DNA from: Balneolaceae bacterium
GTDB taxonomy: Bacteria; Bacteroidota; Rhodothermia; Balneolales; Balneolaceae
NCBI GenBank assembly: GCA_034521495.1
Contig: JAXHMK010000010.1
Location: forward strand, 744,001 to 808,000
Length of the DNA stretch: 64,000 nucleotides
Direction: 5' to 3'
This document shows positions 19,638 through 27,988 of this stretch, piece by piece. The notes under the pieces were generated by a model, which worked only from the letters and a program-made list of their open reading frames with translations, was not told the DNA's origin and made no database searches. A program made the position numbers and the translations under genes. Numbering within the stretch: position 1 is the first letter of the stretch; each line of letters begins with the position of its first letter.

Positions 19638-20621
19638 TTAATTGACCGGCTTTTTTTGATCCTGTTGCAGCATATAGAGTTGCCACAAATCAGCATTGTT
19701 CAATTTCAGCAACGGCTGGATAGCAAGCTTACCCGTTTTACCAATATTCTCTTCAAGATATTTCAGCTCTTCAAACTGTGCTTTTATTTCGGGATCTGGC
19801 GGGAGATCAAAATCGTTTTCTTTCATAATTAAAATTCCCTTTGCCTTAACAGACAACTCCAGGTAAACCCGCAGGTAACAAATAATATCCCCCACAATTT
19901 CAGCTGAAAATTTATTTTCTATCGACTTTAAATAAGTGCCAATTCGAGACTCAGAAATATTTCCTGCCATCAGCAATCGAAGCATCTCCATATCACTATC
20001 CAAACCCGTGCCAAGCCACACACGTGTGTTTTTTTCGCTCTTCTTGAAAATGAAATAAAGCAAAGGCGGAAGGATAATCAGAATTAAAAGGGTAACGGTT
20101 ACCGGAGGCAAAAGGAATTGGTTAAACAGGCCATGAATAAACACAGCTGCCAAAAACCCGGGCAGATAAGTGAATAGATCCGGCCACTCTTTTCGGTCTG
20201 AAATATCTTTGATGAGTATCGCGGCAATTGCTGTAGTTCCGCCATGCATCACCGCTGTACCAAATCCGCGAACAAACCAGGTTAAGAGCCCCGCATTCGA
20301 TAGGGCATTCAAATAGTAGATGTTTTCGATAATGGCAAAACCTGTGCCTACAGCAAATCCAAATATTGTTGCATCCACCGCAAACCCAACTTTTTTGGAT
20401 TGAATCAAATAAACAACAAACAGAATTTTAAAGAACTCTTCAGATATCGGTGCAACAAATCTGGAATAGATGGATGATTCCATGCCAAGCCAAACAATAA
20501 GGTTATAGTTTGCAAATATGGTGATAAGTGCAGAAAATGCCCCCACAACAATTGCAACCACAGTTTGACGAAACGACACAAGTTTAAAACTGTCAATCAC
20601 CCGCATAAAAATGAGAAACAT
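19638..20621 (-). CDS. PrsW-family intramembrane glutamic protease
   Basis: At least 327 residues with seven to eight hydrophobic segments. The catalytic marks of the PrsW/CPBP-like clan are present: PISEEFFKILFVVYL (the EExxK glutamates), GFAVGTGFAIIENIYYL, GTAVMHGG and PGFLAAVFIHGLFNQFLL with the later histidine and asparagine. In Bacillus PrsW starts cleavage of an anti-sigma factor. Here an ECF sigma/anti-sigma pair lies 3 kb upstream on the same strand, which makes a functional tie tempting but unproven. The ATG at 20619-20621 falls inside the first membrane span; the frame stays open upstream, so the true start is probably further up, with a non-ATG codon. Confidence 0.85.
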   Translation of the reverse strand: MFLIFMRVIDSFKLVSFRQTVVAIVVGAFSALITIFANYNLIVWLGMESSIYSRFVAPISEEFFKILFVVYLIQSKKVGFAVDATIFGFAVGTGFAIIENIYYLNALSNAGLLTWFVRGFGTAVMHGGTTAIAAILIKDISDRKEWPDLFTYLPGFLAAVFIHGLFNQFLLPPVTVTLLILIILPPLLYFIFKKSEKNTRVWLGTGLDSDMEMLRLLMAGNISESRIGTYLKSIENKFSAEIVGDIICYLRVYLELSVKAKGILIMKENDFDLPPDPEIKAQFEELKYLEENIGKTGKLAIQPLLKLNNADLWQLYMLQQDQKKPVN

Positions 20622-20693: not shown

Positions 20694-23657
20694 TTATCTC
20701 ATCAACCGTAGTGATATCATCCATTCATCCCCGCGAGATCCGGTATCATAATTCCAGGCTGATCCATAACCCACCGAGAGTGTTGACTCAAGAATAGAAA
20801 ACATCACCATACGAATATCTAATTGTGCTCCAACATTATAATATCTGCCTCTGAATAATTCATCATCAATATTGGTGACCAAACCGGTAGAGAAAAAGTT
20901 AAGCTGCGCCCAGTTTGCGTATAAGTTTAAAAACCCCGCCCTCTTAAATCGTATGGGAGGCGTTGCCCATTCAGCCATCAACTTGGCAAAATTTGTAGCT
21001 GGAATAGCATTCAGTTCTGCACCCGGAAATGAGTAAAAGCGACGGTACTGTCTGCTGTTTTGATTGTCGACCCAATTGTTTCCAAATCCGCCAAAATAGA
21101 AATTACCAAGAGGTTCCTCCCTTGGAGAAAACGAGATACCTGCTGAAGATCTCAGCCAAAGCGATGAGTGATTAATTGGCAGTTCAAACCCTGCATCAAA
21201 ATTTTGATTGATACGGGGAAATAGTTTTCCATCTCCATAATTGTTTGAACTGGTCAGCTCCCACTCAAATCCCTTCTCATAATCCACAGCACCCAACGAA
21301 TTTTGCAGTGCCTGGTACGATACTGAACTATTCAGTGCCACAAATTCGCTGAAAGATGTAGTAATATTTTGGAAATCGGGTAAGCGCTCCATTCCTCCAT
21401 AATAGGCCGAGGCGATGTCGAAATGCACTGTTTTTTCCACATCTTTATAAAGTTCGGTATTGTATCCCATCCCCACTGAGTAACCTTTTCGGCTGCGTTT
21501 TGTGGGACCAAAAAGATCATAAAAATCTGCACCGTTATAATTTCCAAAAAAACGCCAGGATGGGGTTTCGTACAGAAATGAAGCATGAAAATGTTCATCT
21601 TCCGCCAATCCCGAATGAGGGGAATATGAACCCGTTATTGCTAAATCGTGCAGTCGCAGATTATCTGTAAAGTTAAACCGGAGTCCGCCGGCCACATAAT
21701 CTTTAAACCCCTGAACAATGGGATACGCAGAAACCAATGACAGATTCCCAATTGAAGAATAGTCAGATCGACCGGTAATTAAAGCTTCTGTATCCATGCG
21801 GTCTGAATCCGGAGGAGGAAGCATCCAATCAATGACTTCAGGGTGATTTTCGACAATTTCCTGTCCTAAAAAATGTATAGAACTAACGTTGCTTACCGGC
21901 TCATTCTTGATCTTAACGGGTAAAAAACCGGTTCCTGTATATTCAAATGCGATCAGCGTATCCTCTGAAACCGGAATTGGTTTGAAGTAGCCGGTCTCTA
22001 CATTTGTAAGCCATCGAATCTCTTCACTCTCTATATTGTACCGAACAATATTAGAGACCCCGCTGTAGTAGGTTGACCCAAAAAGGTATTTACCATCACC
22101 TGAGAATTGAAAATTGGACGGGGAACTGACCTGAAAATCAAAGAGTTCTCTCGGCTCAAACGTACCGGCTCTCAATGAATCTGTATGGAGCATTACAAGC
22201 CGCTGATCTCCGCTTACATTTCCAAGTGCTGCACTCATCCACTTTCCATCCGGTGAGAGATCGATATCAAAAATATCTTCGCCATAAGGCATGGAATAAA
22301 TTCTATTCCATTGATCATAAGGAGGAGGAATTCGCACGATCGATGCAATTCCATTCAGATGGCGTACGCCCCACAATGATTTATCATTTTCGTTGAGTAC
22401 AAGGTCTCCTGTACGAACATCTTCCATCAACATTTCAGAGTTGCCGGTATGTACATTTACGGAGTAAAGATCGCGCCACTCGTTATTGTCGTTAGTGTAA
22501 AACAGAGTTGCGGAATCCGGATCGTATGCAAGCGAGCTTACAAAATAGAGCGCCGAACCACGGATATCAGTTATCCGGTTCATCTCCCCTGTATTGGGAT
22601 TTAATGAGGTAAGATGTGAAACTCTGCCCGGCAGATCTACAGCCATGTAGATACGGTCGTTCACCTCATCGTAAATACCGCTGGAAACTCCGCCAAGTGG
22701 CCGCGGTGTAAGAACTTCTCGTTCTGTTATGGGATTTTGTCGAATTCTTTCCAGGTTTTGTTGTTGCCATCTGTTTTCCCACTCAACCCAATTCGACCAT
22801 TCATTATCAAGAGAAGTGCCATATATATTTTTGAACTGACGGGCGTAAAACGCTTTGCTGTCATTGGACCGGCTTACCCAATCGAGCAGAGACTGCGGAC
22901 CATACTGAAGCGACAGATAGCTCATAAAACGAGTTCCATACATATACGAGTTTGCACCAACCTGGAAATCGGCGGTTGTGCCTTCCGATTCAAGTCCAAC
23001 AGCATCATAAATGTAAGATGAATCCCGTACCATCGTCCGAAACATCATTTCGTCGTAGGCTCCCATTACCCGGCCAATTCCGCCAGACATCCAGGTTGTC
23101 ATGTATTCTGCAATTCCCTCGTGATACCATCTCGGCGCAAAAATTCTTGGAGCTGTTAAATACGTATAAAACATCGACACAGGATTATCGCGGCTTGGAT
23201 AAACTTTTCCGGCAAACAATGTTCGAAAAAATTGATCCGAATTATTGGGTTTATCCTGGGCTATAATGTGAACCAGCTCATGATTCATCAAAACATTGAT
23301 ACGTTCATTTGCGGGATTTGTCTCATAAGCATAACTGTAGGGCGCAATTCCCATTAGAATAATATTATTAGGAACGGCGGATGCTCCCCCATTTGCAAAA
23401 TCACCATAATCGGACATGATGACACTTACCGGTTCAGAAAGATTGTAATTGAATTTTTCTTTGTGAAATCGAAGAGAGTTAGTATAGCTGCGAACAGTGT
23501 GATTGAGCAGGTATTGATGCCCAAAATTGTAGTAGATGAGATTGAGATCTTCTGTTTCAACGGTCTTAAACTGCCCTGTTGCCCTGGCTTGTAATACAAG
23601 TACAATAAAACATCCACTAATAAATATAATTAACAACTGTTTTAGTATATGCCCCAT
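20694..23657 (-). CDS. Secreted peptidase-MA-like protein with beta-propeller and barrel regions
   Basis: About 987 residues from the ATG at 23655-23657, which gives a clean signal peptide; the frame extends 29 codons further upstream without adding anything recognisable. The N-terminal third carries a gluzincin-type site, MNHELVHIIAQD, followed downstream by WYHEGIAEYMTTW with the third zinc ligand, so a zinc metallopeptidase is predicted. The middle third has repeated TolB/WD40-like blades (DIDLSPDGKWMSAALG, FQFSGDGKYLFGSTYYSG). The last 300 residues alternate like an outer-membrane barrel and end in WMISLRLMR. The combination suggests a surface-anchored peptidase. It is the first gene after the sigma/anti-sigma operon terminator. 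Confidence 0.8.
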   Translation of the reverse strand: MGHILKQLLIIFISGCFIVLVLQARATGQFKTVETEDLNLIYYNFGHQYLLNHTVRSYTNSLRFHKEKFNYNLSEPVSVIMSDYGDFANGGASAVPNNIILMGIAPYSYAYETNPANERINVLMNHELVHIIAQDKPNNSDQFFRTLFAGKVYPSRDNPVSMFYTYLTAPRIFAPRWYHEGIAEYMTTWMSGGIGRVMGAYDEMMFRTMVRDSSYIYDAVGLESEGTTADFQVGANSYMYGTRFMSYLSLQYGPQSLLDWVSRSNDSKAFYARQFKNIYGTSLDNEWSNWVEWENRWQQQNLERIRQNPITEREVLTPRPLGGVSSGIYDEVNDRIYMAVDLPGRVSHLTSLNPNTGEMNRITDIRGSALYFVSSLAYDPDSATLFYTNDNNEWRDLYSVNVHTGNSEMLMEDVRTGDLVLNENDKSLWGVRHLNGIASIVRIPPPYDQWNRIYSMPYGEDIFDIDLSPDGKWMSAALGNVSGDQRLVMLHTDSLRAGTFEPRELFDFQVSSPSNFQFSGDGKYLFGSTYYSGVSNIVRYNIESEEIRWLTNVETGYFKPIPVSEDTLIAFEYTGTGFLPVKIKNEPVSNVSSIHFLGQEIVENHPEVIDWMLPPPDSDRMDTEALITGRSDYSSIGNLSLVSAYPIVQGFKDYVAGGLRFNFTDNLRLHDLAITGSYSPHSGLAEDEHFHASFLYETPSWRFFGNYNGADFYDLFGPTKRSRKGYSVGMGYNTELYKDVEKTVHFDIASAYYGGMERLPDFQNITTSFSEFVALNSSVSYQALQNSLGAVDYEKGFEWELTSSNNYGDGKLFPRINQNFDAGFELPINHSSLWLRSSAGISFSPREEPLGNFYFGGFGNNWVDNQNSRQYRRFYSFPGAELNAIPATNFAKLMAEWATPPIRFKRAGFLNLYANWAQLNFFSTGLVTNIDDELFRGRYYNVGAQLDIRMVMFSILESTLSVGYGSAWNYDTGSRGDEWMISLRLMR

Positions 23658-23744
23658 TGTGTACAGGTTTAATCGTGCCTGTTGAATTTTTTCGCCAAGT
23701 AAATTTAGCCCTAAAAACTTTTGGTTATTTTTACACAAATACAA

Positions 23745-23867: not shown

Positions 23868-25334
23868 TTAATTAAGATCGGGGCTTGCCAGCAGTTGATG
23901 AAAGTCTGGGCTGGCCAGTAATTGATTGAAATCTGGACTTGCAAGTAACTGATTGAAGGCAGGACTCGCCAACAGTTGATTAAAATCTGGACTTGCAAGT
24001 AATTGGTTAAAGTCTTGATTTGCCATTAACTGAGCAAAATCGGGACTTGCCATAAGTTGACTAAAATCCGGGCTGGCCACTAATTGATTGAAGGCCGGGC
24101 TGGCTACCAACTGGTTAAAATCCGGACTCGCCATCAGCTGGGCAAAATCGGAACTTGCCATTAATTGACTGAAATCCGGGCTGGCCACCAACTGTTGGAA
24201 GGCCGGACTTGCTACCAACTGGTTAAAATCCGGGCTCGCCATCAGCTGAGCAAAATCGGAGCTTGCCATCAGTTGATTAAATGATGAACTGGCAAGCAGT
24301 TGATTAAATTCAGCACTGGCAATCAACTGGTTAAACGCCGAACTTTCCATCAACTGATTAAAATCAGAACTGGCCATCAATTGATTAAACTCCGCACTTG
24401 CTGTTAACTGATTAAAATCAGAACTGGCAATTAATTGTTGAAAATCCGAATTGGCAACCAACTGGTTAAAATCAGAGCTGGCCATTAATTGTGTAAAGTC
24501 TGCACTGGCAACCAATTGTTGAAAATTGGAGTTTGCCATTAACTGATTGAAATCTGCAGTTGCAAAAAGTTGATTAAAGTCAGAACTGGCCATTAACTGA
24601 GTGAAGTCAGAATTTGCAATCAACTGGTTAAATTCAGCAGTTGCAAAAAGTTGATTAAAATCAGGGCTGGCAAGTAATTGATTGAAGGCAGAGTTAGCCA
24701 TCAATTGATAAAATTCAGGACTTGCAAAAAGCTGATTAAAATCAGGGCTTGCCATCAATTGTGAGAAGGTTTCGTTTTTGGCAATCGCCTGTAATTCGCC
24801 CGTTTCTACTAAGCGCTGAAAATCATCACTTTGTAATATTTGCTGTGTTTCCTCGCTGTCAAGATCTACATCGGCTTCTGTAATTTGTGTCCCCCTGTAG
24901 CGTTCTGCCTGTTCAACTCCATCTGTTCCGATTGTACCGGAAACATCACTTTGTTGTGGTTGTTGGAAATCTGTAGTAACAAAAACTACAATTACAACTG
25001 CGGCTGCGGCTGCAAGAATTGCGGCTGTCTTACCCGAAAATAATTTTGAATCAGGCATATGTTCCTCCTTTTTGATTTTGTGGATTTTATTCTGTTGTAC
25101 GTCCTTAGTTTCAGATTTTTTAGCTATTTCCTCTTTAATATGCATTGAAAGTCCGTCAGGAAGCTCAATTTCTTTCTTTAACTCATCCATTTTCTTTGCC
25201 ATCTCCTGTAGATCATTGTATAGTGAACGAGCTTCTTCGTTTTCTTCAAGGATTGATTGAACTCTTCGGCTATCCCCGGGTGAATTTTCACCGTCGATTT
25301 CAGCCTGGATTAATTTTACAATCTGATTGTCCAT
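23868..25334 (-). CDS. Anti-sigma-like membrane protein with 33 nonapeptide repeats
   Basis: A 488-residue protein. Residues 1-100 resemble the cytosolic part of an anti-sigma factor (AEIDGENSPGDSRRVQSILE, then NEEARSLYNDL) but have no zinc-ligand motif. A single membrane span lies at about 103-120 (AAILAAAAAVVIVVFV). Residues 121-162 are an acidic linker. Residues 190-486 are 33 uninterrupted copies of a nine-residue unit, consensus FNQLMASPD, ending with Leu-Asn; three weaker units (163-189) precede them. The repeat domain would lie outside the cytoplasm. The gene follows the ECF sigma factor after 143 bases on the same strand, so it is probably the cognate regulator. I know of no named family for the repeat domain. 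Confidence 0.85.
   Translation of the reverse strand: MDNQIVKLIQAEIDGENSPGDSRRVQSILEENEEARSLYNDLQEMAKKMDELKKEIELPDGLSMHIKEEIAKKSETKDVQQNKIHKIKKEEHMPDSKLFSGKTAAILAAAAAVVIVVFVTTDFQQPQQSDVSGTIGTDGVEQAERYRGTQITEADVDLDSEETQQILQSDDFQRLVETGELQAIAKNETFSQLMASPDFNQLFASPEFYQLMANSAFNQLLASPDFNQLFATAEFNQLIANSDFTQLMASSDFNQLFATADFNQLMANSNFQQLVASADFTQLMASSDFNQLVANSDFQQLIASSDFNQLTASAEFNQLMASSDFNQLMESSAFNQLIASAEFNQLLASSSFNQLMASSDFAQLMASPDFNQLVASPAFQQLVASPDFSQLMASSDFAQLMASPDFNQLVASPAFNQLVASPDFSQLMASPDFAQLMANQDFNQLLASPDFNQLLASPAFNQLLASPDFNQLLASPDFHQLLASPDLN
23877..24767 (-). repeat. 27-bp coding tandem repeat, 33 units
   Basis: The 891 bases encode 33 nonapeptides in register without a gap or stop. Phe (position 1), Gln-Leu (3-4) and Ala (6) are nearly invariant; positions 5 and 7-9 vary. 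A 36-residue (108-bp) block, four units long, is repeated (units 20-23 and 24-27), and the last units (29-33) are the most uniform, which points to recent expansion at the 3' end. Confidence 0.95.
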
Positions 25335-25477: not shown

Positions 25478-25999
25478 TTAACAGAGTCGTTCTCGCAGTT
25501 TCATTCGGGCTCCATACAAACGTGATTTTACTTTTTTCTCTTCAATATCCAACACTTCAGCAATCTCTTTATAACTGAGTTCCTCAAAGTGCCTCAAATA
25601 TATTACAGAGCTGAATTTTTGATCTAACGATTCTATCGCTTCGTAAAGTTGACGGTTTTCCTCTTTTCTGATGACTATGCCAACCGGAGTTTCTCCATCT
25701 GTTTCATTGGGAGAAATTCTCTCTGTTTCTGTTACCCCTCTCATTTTATTCAAAGCCTCGTTCATTATAATCCGATAGAGCCAACTATAAAATTTATAGT
25801 CTGAATTATAAGACTTCAACTTCTCCCAGGATTTTATGAACCCGTTTTGTGTTACATCTTTAGCAGCTTCAGGATCTTTTACAACAGATAGAGCGGTCCT
25901 GTACATGGTCAGTTGATATCGATCAACCAACTCATCAAATGCCCCGTTATTTCCTTCCAGACACTGTGTTACAAGTTCTTTATCACTCGCCCCAACCAT
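25478..25999 (-). CDS. ECF-type RNA polymerase sigma factor
   Basis: A 173-residue sigma-70 family protein. Region 2 is recognised by FDELVDRYQLTMYRTALSVV and DVTQNGFIKSWEKL, then YKFYSWLYRIIMNEAL. Region 4 is DQKFSSVIYLRHFEELSYKE followed by IAEVLDIEEKKVKSRLYGAR. The size and the lack of regions 1 and 3 fit an extracytoplasmic-function factor. The downstream membrane protein on the same strand is the natural anti-sigma partner, although the 143-base gap is longer than usual for such pairs. Confidence 0.94.
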   Translation of the reverse strand: MVGASDKELVTQCLEGNNGAFDELVDRYQLTMYRTALSVVKDPEAAKDVTQNGFIKSWEKLKSYNSDYKFYSWLYRIIMNEALNKMRGVTETERISPNETDGETPVGIVIRKEENRQLYEAIESLDQKFSSVIYLRHFEELSYKEIAEVLDIEEKKVKSRLYGARMKLRERLC

Positions 26000-26081: not shown

Positions 26082-26366
26082 TTATTCAATGGTAAAAATC
26101 TGATCAAGTCGTGTAAATTTAAATACATCCCTTACGTGGTCATTCATATTCTTCAATCTAACTGTATGTCCGTTTTTTTCCAGTCGTTTATATGTATTCA
26201 CGAGAATACTTAATCCCATACTTGAAATATAATCCAGATCCGACATATCAATCGTAACCGTTTCTTCACTTTTTGAAAGATGATTAGCTGCTTTTTCAGC
26301 CTGACTTGCATCCAAACGGCCTTTAAATTTTAGCTCATTGGCACTTTTCTTTTCGATAGTCAACAT
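26082..26366 (-). CDS. STAS-domain anti-sigma factor antagonist
   Basis: A 94-residue single STAS domain. The phosphorylatable serine region is DLDYISSMGLSILVNTY, followed by the typical C-terminal VRLKNMNDHVRDVFKFTRLDQIFTIE. Such proteins bind and neutralise an RsbW-like kinase when unphosphorylated. It follows the HATPase gene 9 bases downstream on the same strand, so the two form a pair. Confidence 0.9.
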   Translation of the reverse strand: MLTIEKKSANELKFKGRLDASQAEKAANHLSKSEETVTIDMSDLDYISSMGLSILVNTYKRLEKNGHTVRLKNMNDHVRDVFKFTRLDQIFTIE

Positions 26367-26375
26367 TCTAAATCC

Positions 26376-26780
26376 TCAAACATTTTTAATTATCGTAATT
26401 TTTGAGATCCCATTTTGGTGTTCAAATTTCACTTCATCCATCAATTGTTTTACAAGAAAAATACCCAAACCACCCGATCTCTTCTTTTTAATATAATCAT
26501 CAAAATCGATCTTGGTTGTTTTAGTCAAATCAAAGGGGTGCTCTTCATGATCCGTCAGACATGTTAATATCTGACCGTTAACACTTTCAATAGATATTTC
26601 TATGGCCTGACTTGAACCGGAATTGTGCCGAACCATATTTGTAAAAATCTCTTCAACCGAAAGCTCAATATCATGTAAAAGCCTCTCACCCAGATGAAAT
26701 TTTTCCCCGTTTCCTTCCAGGAAATTGAAAATATTTTCCAGTTCCTTAATACTTCTGCTAAATTTTTTTTTGTTTTCCAT
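26376..26780 (-). CDS. RsbW-like serine kinase/anti-sigma ATPase
   Basis: A 134-residue GHKL ATPase of the RsbW/SpoIIAB type. The N box is LSVEEIFTNMVRHN, and the G1/G2 region is KKRSGGLGIFLVKQLMDEV. It would phosphorylate the STAS partner and could hold a sigma factor or another output protein. It is cytosolic. The matching phosphatase and sigma-B-like factor are not in the window, so the output is not known. Confidence 0.88.
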   Translation of the reverse strand: MENKKKFSRSIKELENIFNFLEGNGEKFHLGERLLHDIELSVEEIFTNMVRHNSGSSQAIEISIESVNGQILTCLTDHEEHPFDLTKTTKIDFDDYIKKKRSGGLGIFLVKQLMDEVKFEHQNGISKITIIKNV

Positions 26781-26987
26781 TAATTGAGCAAATAATTGTT
26801 TAAAGAACCATCTATCTCAATTTAATTGCCAATATAATAGAAAAATTATACCATTTTACTCTTTTAATTTATTATGTTTGTTTTTCCAGGTTCTACTTCA
26901 ATTATTATTTGAAAATCTATTATTAGCTTTTAATAATATTAATTGTAGTTTTTATTCATAATCCAATGAAATCCAAATAAGGAAACC

Positions 26988-27329
26988 ATGAATTACAGTA
27001 TAAACGAAAAGTACAACTGCGTAGTTATCAATTTAAAAGGCAGAGTTATGGGCGGGCCAGATGCCGAAACATTTTCAAATGAAATTCACAAACTTATTGA
27101 CGAGGGTAAGAAGCAGATTATAATCAATTTGGAGGATGTTAAATTTATGAACTCTTCCGGTTTAGGAATTCTAATTGGAGGACTCAATACTGTGCGAAAA
27201 AATGATGGAGATATAAAACTGTGCAATGCAGATAAACGAATTTCAAGTTTATTGATGGTCTCCCAGTTGAACACAGTATTCGACCACTATACCAGCCTGG
27301 ATGAGGCACTTGAAGCCTACAACGACTAA
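26988..27329 (+). CDS. STAS-domain anti-sigma factor antagonist, second copy
   Basis: A 113-residue STAS domain protein, divergent from the RsbW-like gene with a 207-base AT-rich gap. The core is LEDVKFMNSSGLGILIGGLN with the phosphorylatable serine, and it begins YNCVVINLKGRVMGGPDAE. It is longer and more standard in length than the first STAS protein. It could compete for the same kinase or serve another one elsewhere. Confidence 0.9.
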   Translation: MNYSINEKYNCVVINLKGRVMGGPDAETFSNEIHKLIDEGKKQIIINLEDVKFMNSSGLGILIGGLNTVRKNDGDIKLCNADKRISSLLMVSQLNTVFDHYTSLDEALEAYND

Positions 27330-27427
27330 TGCAATCATCTAAATTGATTGTTAAGATTTCTACAAGACTCATCGGGGGAAAATTTTAATAAACTACCGGC
27401 GGGTCTTGTTTGATTCCCTTTCTCCTC

Positions 27428-27988
27428 ATGGCTGAATCTTATTTTGCTGATCAAACTTTTAAAGGTGTAAAGTCCATACAAATAGGAGATTTTGAAAATT
27501 GTCACTTCATAAACTGTATCCTGCCAAATTCAGATTTATCCGATATCAGTTTTGTTGAATGTGAATTTGAGAATTGCGATTTCAGCTCATCTAAGCTCTA
27601 CGACACCTCTTTCAAATCAGTATTCTTTATTGAATCCAAACTGGTAGGTTTGCGATTTGAAGAGTGCAATGAATTTCTATTTTCAATTGATTTCCGGAGC
27701 TGCTACCTAAACCTCTCCTCTTTTTACCAGATGAATCCTCAAGGAATTTCATTCCGGGAATGTAATCTAAAAGAAGTGGATTTTACAGAAGCAGAACTGG
27801 CTGAGACCCTATTTGAAAAATGTAATCTCAACTCAGCCATCTTCAAAAATACCAATCTTGAAAAAGCTAACTTTAGATCTGCTTACAATTTTCTGATCGA
27901 TCCTGAAATCAATAACATTCAAAAAACAAAGTTTTCCTTGATGGGATTACCCGGATTATTAGACAAGTATGATCTTGAGATAGAATAA
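27428..27988 (+). CDS. Pentapeptide-repeat protein (Qnr/MfpA-like length)
   Basis: About 186 residues from the ATG at 27428; the frame is open to a TTG at 27410. Most of the protein follows the A(D/N)LXX-type five-residue period, for example FENCHFINCILPNSDL, FVECEFENCDFSS, FRECNLKEVDFTEAEL and FEKCNLNSAIFKNTNL. The closing helix-like tail LMGLPGLLDKYDLEIE resembles the dimerisation tail of Qnr and MfpA, which mimic DNA and bind gyrase. Gyrase protection is possible but not shown here. It is a single gene between the STAS gene and polA. Confidence 0.88.
   Translation: MAESYFADQTFKGVKSIQIGDFENCHFINCILPNSDLSDISFVECEFENCDFSSSKLYDTSFKSVFFIESKLVGLRFEECNEFLFSIDFRSCYLNLSSFYQMNPQGISFRECNLKEVDFTEAELAETLFEKCNLNSAIFKNTNLEKANFRSAYNFLIDPEINNIQKTKFSLMGLPGLLDKYDLEIE

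Follow-up and report, generated by a model that had tools for sequence, protein, structure and literature searches.

Genes at the locus

The window considered here is the whole stretch of 64,000 nucleotides analysed, taken from positions 744001-808000 of a contig of a Balneolaceae bacterium. The gene under study encodes a 488-residue protein that begins with an anti-sigma-like part and ends in a long array of nonapeptide units. It lies between the gene for an ECF sigma factor and that for a large multidomain protein, called the partner below, and the partner gene is followed by one for a PrsW-family protease (Table 1).

Table 1. Features of the array locus, with positions counted from the first letter of the window
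Feature	Position	Strand	Basis
PrsW-family intramembrane protease	19638..20621	-	Aligned with relatives in PrsW model; relatives match PF13367
Partner: HExxH peptidase-like part, TolB-like propeller, probable Omp85-type barrel	20694..23744	-	Alignment and profiles
Anti-sigma/array fusion gene, 488 aa	23868..25334	-	ORF and translation
Nonapeptide array, 33 units, residues 190-486 (F190 to D486)	23877..24767	-	Unit analysis; AlphaFold2
36-residue (4-unit) block, tandem duplication	24066..24281	-	Sequence comparison
About three degenerate in-register units, residues 163-189	24768..24848	-	By eye; unit phasing covers two
Juxtamembrane motif GTIGxDxVExAxRYRxTQIT, residues 131-158	24861..24944	-	Invariant columns among relatives
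Putative hydrophobic membrane span, about residues 103-121	24972..25028	-	From sequence
Met93, internal ATG conserved among relatives, where the stand-alone array gene has its start codon	25056..25058	-	Alignments
Cytosolic anti-sigma-like part, residues 1-92	25059..25334	-	NCBIfam NF052375; VIA
Internal Shine-Dalgarno-like AAAGGAGG, in frame in gene	25064..25071	-	Upstream-sequence comparison
ECF sigma factor	25478..25999	-	Pfam/NCBIfam and ortholog search
STAS protein (RsbV-like)	26082..26366	-	Pfam, locus comparison
HATPase_c_2 protein (RsbW-like)	26376..26780	-	Pfam, locus comparison
Second STAS protein, divergent	26988..27329	+	Pfam, locus comparison

A contig scan for the array gene yielded 20 named loci, in which the gene order is RsbW-like ATPase, STAS protein, ECF sigma factor, anti-sigma/array fusion and a partner of about 1000 residues. 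The ATPase is present in 11 of them, the first STAS protein in 15, the second in 7, and the sigma factor and the partner in 18 each; the misses of the latter two fall at contig ends, the loci that miss the sigma factor (L041 and L050) beginning at a contig edge. These loci come from metagenome assemblies labelled Balneolaceae, Balneolales, Balneolia, Rhodothermaceae, Ignavibacteriales or Bacteroidetes, and for many of the relatives a soda-lake origin is suggested by isolate labels like CSSed, presumably short for Cock Soda Lake sediment.

The RsbW-like ATPase and the two STAS proteins (26082-27329) form a partner-switch set adjoining the ECF system. Beside them, at 27410-27988 on the forward strand, lies the gene for a 192-residue protein with a pentapeptide-like pattern (CDFSSSKLYDTSF...), and a similar protein was seen by eye in the same region of another genome, G011.

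In an alignment of 14 partner proteins, the sequences HELVH and WYHEG are invariant (14/14). A TolB propeller signal was obtained for 11 of the 14 (best E-value 3.7e-4) and an Omp85_2 signal for five (best 4.9e-4), the window partner itself having no Omp85_2 match; the barrel is probably of the Omp85 type, judging from these profiles. A comparison with PDB sequences gave no significant match. By its description in the available part of PMC4104836, the WD40-Omp85 subfamily, in which a propeller is followed by an Omp85 barrel, resembles the predicted make-up of the partner, which differs in having an HExxH domain in front.

Seven relatives of the window PrsW protein are assigned to PF13367 by Pfam. 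With a local model, PrsW was found downstream of the partner in all 15 named loci that have at least 1 kb of room there; at L031, it lies about 1.7 kb beyond the partner.

Anti-sigma-like part and putative membrane span

The N-terminal part matches NCBIfam NF052375 over residues 19-144 with an E-value of 2.2e-8 and 34.4 bits, which is under the model's cut-off of 100. Structure comparison by VIA gave modest Z values of 6.5 for RsiW (5wuq), 6.2 for MucA (8z6g) and 5.8 for 6in7, all obtained from an AlphaFold2 model whose pLDDT is only about 48-66 in residues 1-50; in the compared structures, RsiW is bound to SigW and MucA to AlgU. Residues 1-92 contain no cysteine, so the CHCC zinc motif of ZAS proteins is absent from them.

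Hydrophobicity points to a single putative membrane span at about residues 103-121, ahead of the array, where the first-pass annotation of this DNA had placed it. Relatives align from the cytosolic part through the span to the juxtamembrane segment with many invariant columns, including M93 and G-T...E-x-x-x-R-x-R..Q, and a core resembling the VExAxRYR of the juxtamembrane motif is also present in other lineages. Whole or in part, the anti-sigma/array protein was found by protein search in 20 of 58 genomes, its own included, and a sigma ortholog in 21 of the 58, including all 20 of these. The adjoining ECF sigma gene and the modest resemblance to RsiW and MucA support the view, already taken in that annotation, that the array protein is a membrane-anchored anti-sigma-like protein.

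The nonapeptide array

The array consists of 33 consecutive units with the consensus FNQLMASPD and without a gap. F1, Q3 and L4 are invariant (33/33 each), A6 is found in 32 units and an acidic residue at position 9 in 26, while position 5 is never Ala and position 7 never Lys (0/33 each). The column agreement of 0.76 compares with a maximum of 0.26 among 2000 shuffles. In front of the array are about three degenerate units in the same register, recognised by eye, of which the unit phasing covers two. Within it, a block of 36 residues (352-387) is repeated immediately (388-423), with 34 or 35 of the 36 residues identical depending on the start point chosen; this duplication may be read as a sign that the array is still expanding. 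The gapless array, the weaker units and the duplicated block had all been described from the sequence in the first-pass annotation, and each was recovered here.

Differences between the window units fall mostly on third codon positions (0.57, against 0.26 for first and 0.14 for second positions), and this excess indicates that the protein sequence of the unit is under constraint.

Variation of the unit among species

Species have units of their own, although some close relatives share one: besides FNQLMASPD in the window, we found FQRLMASAD, FAELAANPS, FVELMREPS, FRNLIAVED and LVAALRDDN. Of 25 arrays, 21 could be cleanly phased; the other four (L038, L039, L042 and L045, in which no more than 0.7 of the units are clean) were excluded from the identity comparison and from the counts over 765 units given below. 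For 195 of the 210 pairs of arrays, the identities within both arrays exceed that between them (means 0.51 and 0.28), as is expected from concerted evolution. In aligning arrays, one segment per species was used, sliding segments of a single array having given 327 columns, and the cut arrays of L040 and L043 were excluded from alignment A2.

A hydrophobic residue occupies position 1 in 745 and position 4 in 754 of the 765 units, counts that are partly built in, as the unit phase was selected on these two positions. Phasing took no account of positions 7 and 8: position 7 is S, T, D or N in 658 units, and 291 of the 303 prolines stand at position 8. A proline directly after an S/T/D/N cap is a classical helix start, and from the cap and proline pattern each unit would seem to begin a new helix. 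In relatives, 171 units have Ala at position 5, a residue never found there in the window array.

It had been proposed that the length of the array tunes the release of the sigma factor. However, the length is fairly constant across species (37.3 +/- 4.5 units, 25 sequences); this favours a required size over tuning. The same figures bear on the idea that the array is a neutral expansion, i.e., slippage-prone filler with no role beyond that of a flexible tether. Such an idea would fit the recent block duplication and the fact that the corresponding place in other lineages holds arrays of quite another kind or no array, but it is hard to reconcile with the third-position excess, the invariant F, Q and L or the constant length, and we consider it very improbable.

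Predicted fold and comparison with other repeats

AlphaFold2 models of the whole protein mostly show a helix of seven residues and a turn of two in each unit, with a pLDDT of about 70-80 over most of the array, a poor stretch at residues 304-334 and a pTM of 0.48 (19-row alignment). When 21 units were modelled alone (11-row alignment), 21 helices were obtained with a mean pLDDT of 84.4 and a pTM of 0.41; among the five models, pLDDT ranged from 84 down to 42, two being below 45. The prediction is thus one short helix per unit, and to that extent agrees with the short-period solenoid first suggested. A Foldseek search of the PDB with the array model returned three matches at E<=10, none of them below 0.001, which is no proof of a new fold, and none of the three reached a Z of 2 in VIA.

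Sequence matches of so repetitive an array need care. Reversed arrays match other families at 1.6e-8, so E-values of this order are unreliable, and since the nonsense matches of reversed arrays are equally strong, the Pfam and NCBIfam matches on the array were rejected: BACK, TPR_END_plus (whole-protein scores above cut-offs), YdhT and others were put down to repetitiveness. Factor V was likewise discarded; it is matched at 3.6e-32 by a single sequence, but at only 28.5 bits and 7.7e-6 by the profile, and the residues at the core positions differ. Its LSPD repeat, presumably PF06049, is not among the 10 Pfam families listed at E<=1 for the window protein. The repeats of this vertebrate protein (7kve) have a nine-residue period with S-P-D like the array but, unlike it, carry Leu mostly at position 1 and none at position 4, and the match arises through repetitiveness.

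Repeat matches were also found in three phage and two plasmid records, two of which were examined: L140 (1324-2304, a Paenibacillus plasmid) and L141 (967-1716, a phage) carry nine-residue repeats, YSRLAASGD and SAQLAASGD, between similar end domains, and repeats of the SAQLAASGD type show periods of both 9 and 18. With Leu at position 4, Ala at 5-6, Ser at 7 and often Asp at 9, they have a Leu-Ala-Ala-Ser core in common with the array; they differ in that position 1 is not hydrophobic, position 8 is Gly and no membrane span was seen. The array query also caught an unrelated FNQ-containing repeat, in a 690-residue protein made of FNQPIGDWDVSNVT units (L029, 796-2866).

Two comparisons raise functional alternatives. 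The first is with Tcar0761 (5apz), onto which the array profile aligns in exact register, FxxL onto IxxM, at E=0.16. According to the available part of PMC4786415, its nonads have the same nine-residue period with hydrophobic residues at positions 1 and 4 and an acidic one at 9, and a fibre of this kind has a crystal structure. The array might then be a structural stalk, a trimeric nine-residue alpha/beta coiled coil serving as a rigid spacer, for which the position-5 Ala of relatives would also speak. However, the E-value is only 0.16, the cap residue stands one position later than in Tcar0761, often with proline, and of the beta-layer consensus [aliphatic]-A-T-K-[polar]-[DE] only the aliphatic residue at 4 (33/33) and the acidic one at 9 (26/33) are found in the window, where the central Ala, the Thr and the Lys are lacking. 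We regard a stalk of this type as improbable.

The second comparison is with STI1-HOP_DP (PF17830), the Pfam family matched by most members: it was hit by 11 of 19 relatives (best 8.8e-16), and by three of three arrays read forward and none of three reversed. UBQLN1 was matched by two of the 19, and the array of G104 matches it over 60 of 70 positions, above its cut-off. As described in the available part of PMC13083928, STI1/HOP-DP and ubiquilin domains (PF17830, PF23195) are, like the array, composed of short Met/Leu-rich helices with proline turns, and in one ubiquilin-family STI1 a Met-rich groove binds transmembrane segments. A string of such helices might hold hydrophobic or unfolded envelope proteins in a chaperone-like manner, its loading being the stress signal. 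On the other hand, the array has dozens of consecutive units, the STI1-HOP_DP matches span about 20-28 of 55 positions in the relatives with ranges shown and so fall short of the whole domain, the window protein matches neither PF17830 nor UBQLN1 among the families listed by Pfam, and reversed arrays do find other families at 1.6e-8; we give this possibility little credence. On the reversed-array control and the position tests, the array was assigned neither to Tcar0761 nor to STI1/HOP-DP. The first-pass remark that no named family with this unit was known needs qualifying accordingly: similar nine-residue repeats do exist, in Tcar0761, factor V, a phage and a plasmid, but none is a clear relative.

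A possible internal start at Met93

In the window, Met93 is preceded by AAAAAGGAGGAACAT-ATG. A match of at least 5 nt to AAAGGAGGT was found at this place in 15 of 23 sequences (window included), compared with seven of 336 internal Mets elsewhere in 34 ORFs of the window; for at least 4 nt, the counts are 20 of 23 and 46 of 336. In the other eight sequences the match is shorter than 5 nt. Of the 20 sequences with Glu at M-3, 19 use GAG, compared with 117 of 348 Glu codons nearby, and in L042 the residue is now Arg, with GAGG still there. Note that L085 (G141), which has no Met at this place and only one earlier in frame, was left out of both counts.

Some genomes have the array in a gene of its own. 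Among eight stand-alone array genes read, three (G272, G061 and G393) have their start codon at the equivalent Met, behind AAGGAGG- or GGAGG-type sites, and show a Shine-Dalgarno match of at least 5 nt near the start; G261 and G124 have a weaker GGAG, and G309, G104 and G182 have none at the normal distance. It looks as if the fused gene keeps the ribosome-binding site and the start codon of the separate gene in frame, and it may make two proteins. However, Bacteroidia ribosomes mostly ignore Shine-Dalgarno sequences, according to the available text of PMC9976891, so that Met93 may instead be a relic; a text search of that available text found no mention of Balneolales.

Arrangements in other genomes

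The array and the partner occur together. Counting at least 10 units as an array and a strong match as a partner, we found both in 16 of the 58 genomes, the array only in none, the partner only in two and neither in 40 (Fisher p=1.9e-12, although p-values of this kind overstate independence because the sequences share ancestry). In the two partner-only genomes (G010 and G020), the partner stands at a contig start and is cut by the contig end. Four genomes with part of the anti-sigma protein and no readable array (G011, G044, G052 and G055) were counted under 'neither', the arrays of G044 and G052 being cut by contig ends. In G055, a 285-residue version of the anti-sigma protein adjoins its sigma gene (L018/L112), its outer part being degenerate, with no clean array.

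Sampled across the phylum, the partner was found in 30 of 395 genomes, 24 of which are readable upstream (G179 is mostly masked; G010, G020, G116, G364, G382 and G092 are unreadable). The upstream protein has nine-residue repeats in eight genomes, 12-residue repeats in one (weak), 15/16-residue repeats, such as SQLEELGSRYGFLRSN, in ten (one largely masked), a weak 26-residue period in one and no clear period in four, the last of which indicate that the partner needs no array as such. Where the N-terminus is readable, a similar short motif can be recognised by eye, in some cases VERAERYR and in others a looser version (VKKYNAGQ, for instance); the 15/16-residue set has it, again by eye, after a signal-peptide-like start. 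Arrays of this set (SQLEELGSRYGFLRSN, SQVEALGSAYIFGRSA) stand upstream of the partner in L127, L128, L134, L135, L137 and L139, which belong to other families, and some are nearly perfect at the protein level.

The connection with the sigma factor is looser. In G061 and G272, sigma factor, anti-sigma factor, array and partner are encoded by four separate genes in a row. G104 has a separate array gene, the partner and PrsW, with no sigma gene in the 12 kb read, and none was found in the seven 15/16-residue genomes with upstream sequence; control of a sigma factor is, then, not the only role of the array. In one of the 15/16-residue genomes, G279 (L164, 3899-5290 and 316-3921), the array gene lies behind the genes for a sigma-54 activator, recognised by Pfam, and for a large protein that looks kinase-like by eye; these perhaps represent another regulator that replaces the ECF pair. 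These sigma-free and split arrangements, together with the co-occurrence of array and partner, indicate that the array belongs first with the partner and that the fusion to the anti-sigma factor is an added link. Hence, of the earlier proposal that the array is a sensor tied to the sigma factor, the tie proves frequent but not defining, the array being a separate gene in G061, G272 and G104.

Losses also affect several parts at once. G011 keeps the sigma gene, followed by an anti-sigma stub of 84 residues and an out-of-frame stretch, TANPAFHKLI, that is like a last array unit; neither a strong partner match nor PrsW was found in the 13 kb read beside the sigma gene. Judged by its sequence, this genome has lost array, partner and PrsW, and the out-of-frame stretch is a scar of the array type. 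In G285, which has no strong partner match in the 395-genome sample, PrsW directly follows an anti-sigma-like gene that lacks an array (L092, 7-1725), with no partner between. G071 (L148) has another type of anti-sigma fusion, in which the outer part carries a weak repeat of a different sort; no PrsW was found in the 2.4 kb downstream.

Outside the named loci, PrsW is present at seven of eight membrane-anchored loci (all but G071) and at neither of the two readable signal-peptide lineages. This distribution fits the main rival to the mechanism described below, in which the array would be the cargo of its Omp85-like neighbour: a cut near VExAxRYR, by PrsW in the membrane-anchored forms or by signal peptidase in the signal-peptide forms, would free the array for processing or export by the partner, and the fusion would couple export to transcription. 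The motif follows a membrane span in one set and, by eye, a signal-peptide-like start in the other, PrsW accompanies membrane-anchored forms even where no sigma gene was found (G104), and the partner is the constant neighbour; the signal-peptide forms are better accounted for in this way. However, the PrsW contrast comes from only two signal-peptide lineages, PrsW follows an array-less gene in G285, and the Omp85 assignment is weak (5/14). We hold export to be unlikely, but a serious alternative.

A possible mechanism

The reading we prefer, with a probability of roughly 45%, is that the array forms a periplasmic arm whose contact with the outer-membrane partner gates the cleavage of the anti-sigma factor by PrsW. 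From the observed gene order ([RsbW-like ATPase, STAS], ECF sigma, anti-sigma/array fusion, HExxH-propeller-Omp85-like partner, PrsW), the co-occurrence and co-loss, the turnover of units at a fixed period and the conserved internal ribosome-binding site, we infer the following steps. Each unit would form one short capped helix, and about 37 units an arm that meets the partner. Contact between arm and partner would shield the GTIG-VExAxRYR segment next to the membrane; once that contact is lost, PrsW would clip this segment and the sigma factor would be freed, as happens to RsiW; in systems controlled by PrsW, a site-2 protease acts after it. In Bacillus subtilis, PrsW cuts the anti-sigma factor RsiW, and the inducers of the SigW regulon include alkaline shock, as stated in the available part of PMC5358783. 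Initiation at Met93 would yield, alongside the anti-sigma form, an array-only protein like the stand-alone form, which might leave most arms for envelope work and some for reporting on the envelope.

Comparison with known systems

More broadly, and tentatively, the locus may represent a widespread and so far undescribed envelope system of Bacteroidota, in which an array protein with an N-terminal VExAxRYR-like signature has a dedicated HExxH-propeller-Omp85 partner that is retained as lineages exchange arrays with units of 9, 12 or 15/16 residues. Among Balneolales and some Ignavibacteriales, an in-frame fusion would have joined the array gene, ribosome-binding site included, to an anti-sigma gene, yielding both an envelope part and a sensor, with PrsW as the release switch. 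Control by sigma factor, anti-sigma factor and PrsW is itself already known; in the open PMC literature, we found no description of an array-fused anti-sigma factor that keeps an inner start, has an HExxH-propeller-Omp85 partner and carries arrays swapped between lineages.

If this is true, the locus provides sigma control through a sensor made of an exchangeable helical array, linked to an outer-membrane-type protein and to PrsW, and it is a case of gene fusion in which the start site of the inner gene is retained. Having one partner and many arrays, it offers a natural series on what tandem repeats must keep and what they may change, and for structural work the array is an unusually short predicted helical repeat.

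A close comparison is with RsiW, SigW and PrsW of B. subtilis, as given in the available part of PMC5358783, with which the locus shares an ECF sigma factor, a one-span anti-sigma factor and a PrsW-family protease. It differs in that residues 1-92 have no cysteine or zinc motif, the outer part is a long array, the PrsW gene is part of the locus and follows that of an outer-membrane-type protein, and there is a possible second start codon. Two-partner secretion likewise has a repeat protein encoded beside a barrel of the Omp85 superfamily; here, in contrast, the repeat protein is a helical array on a membrane anchor.
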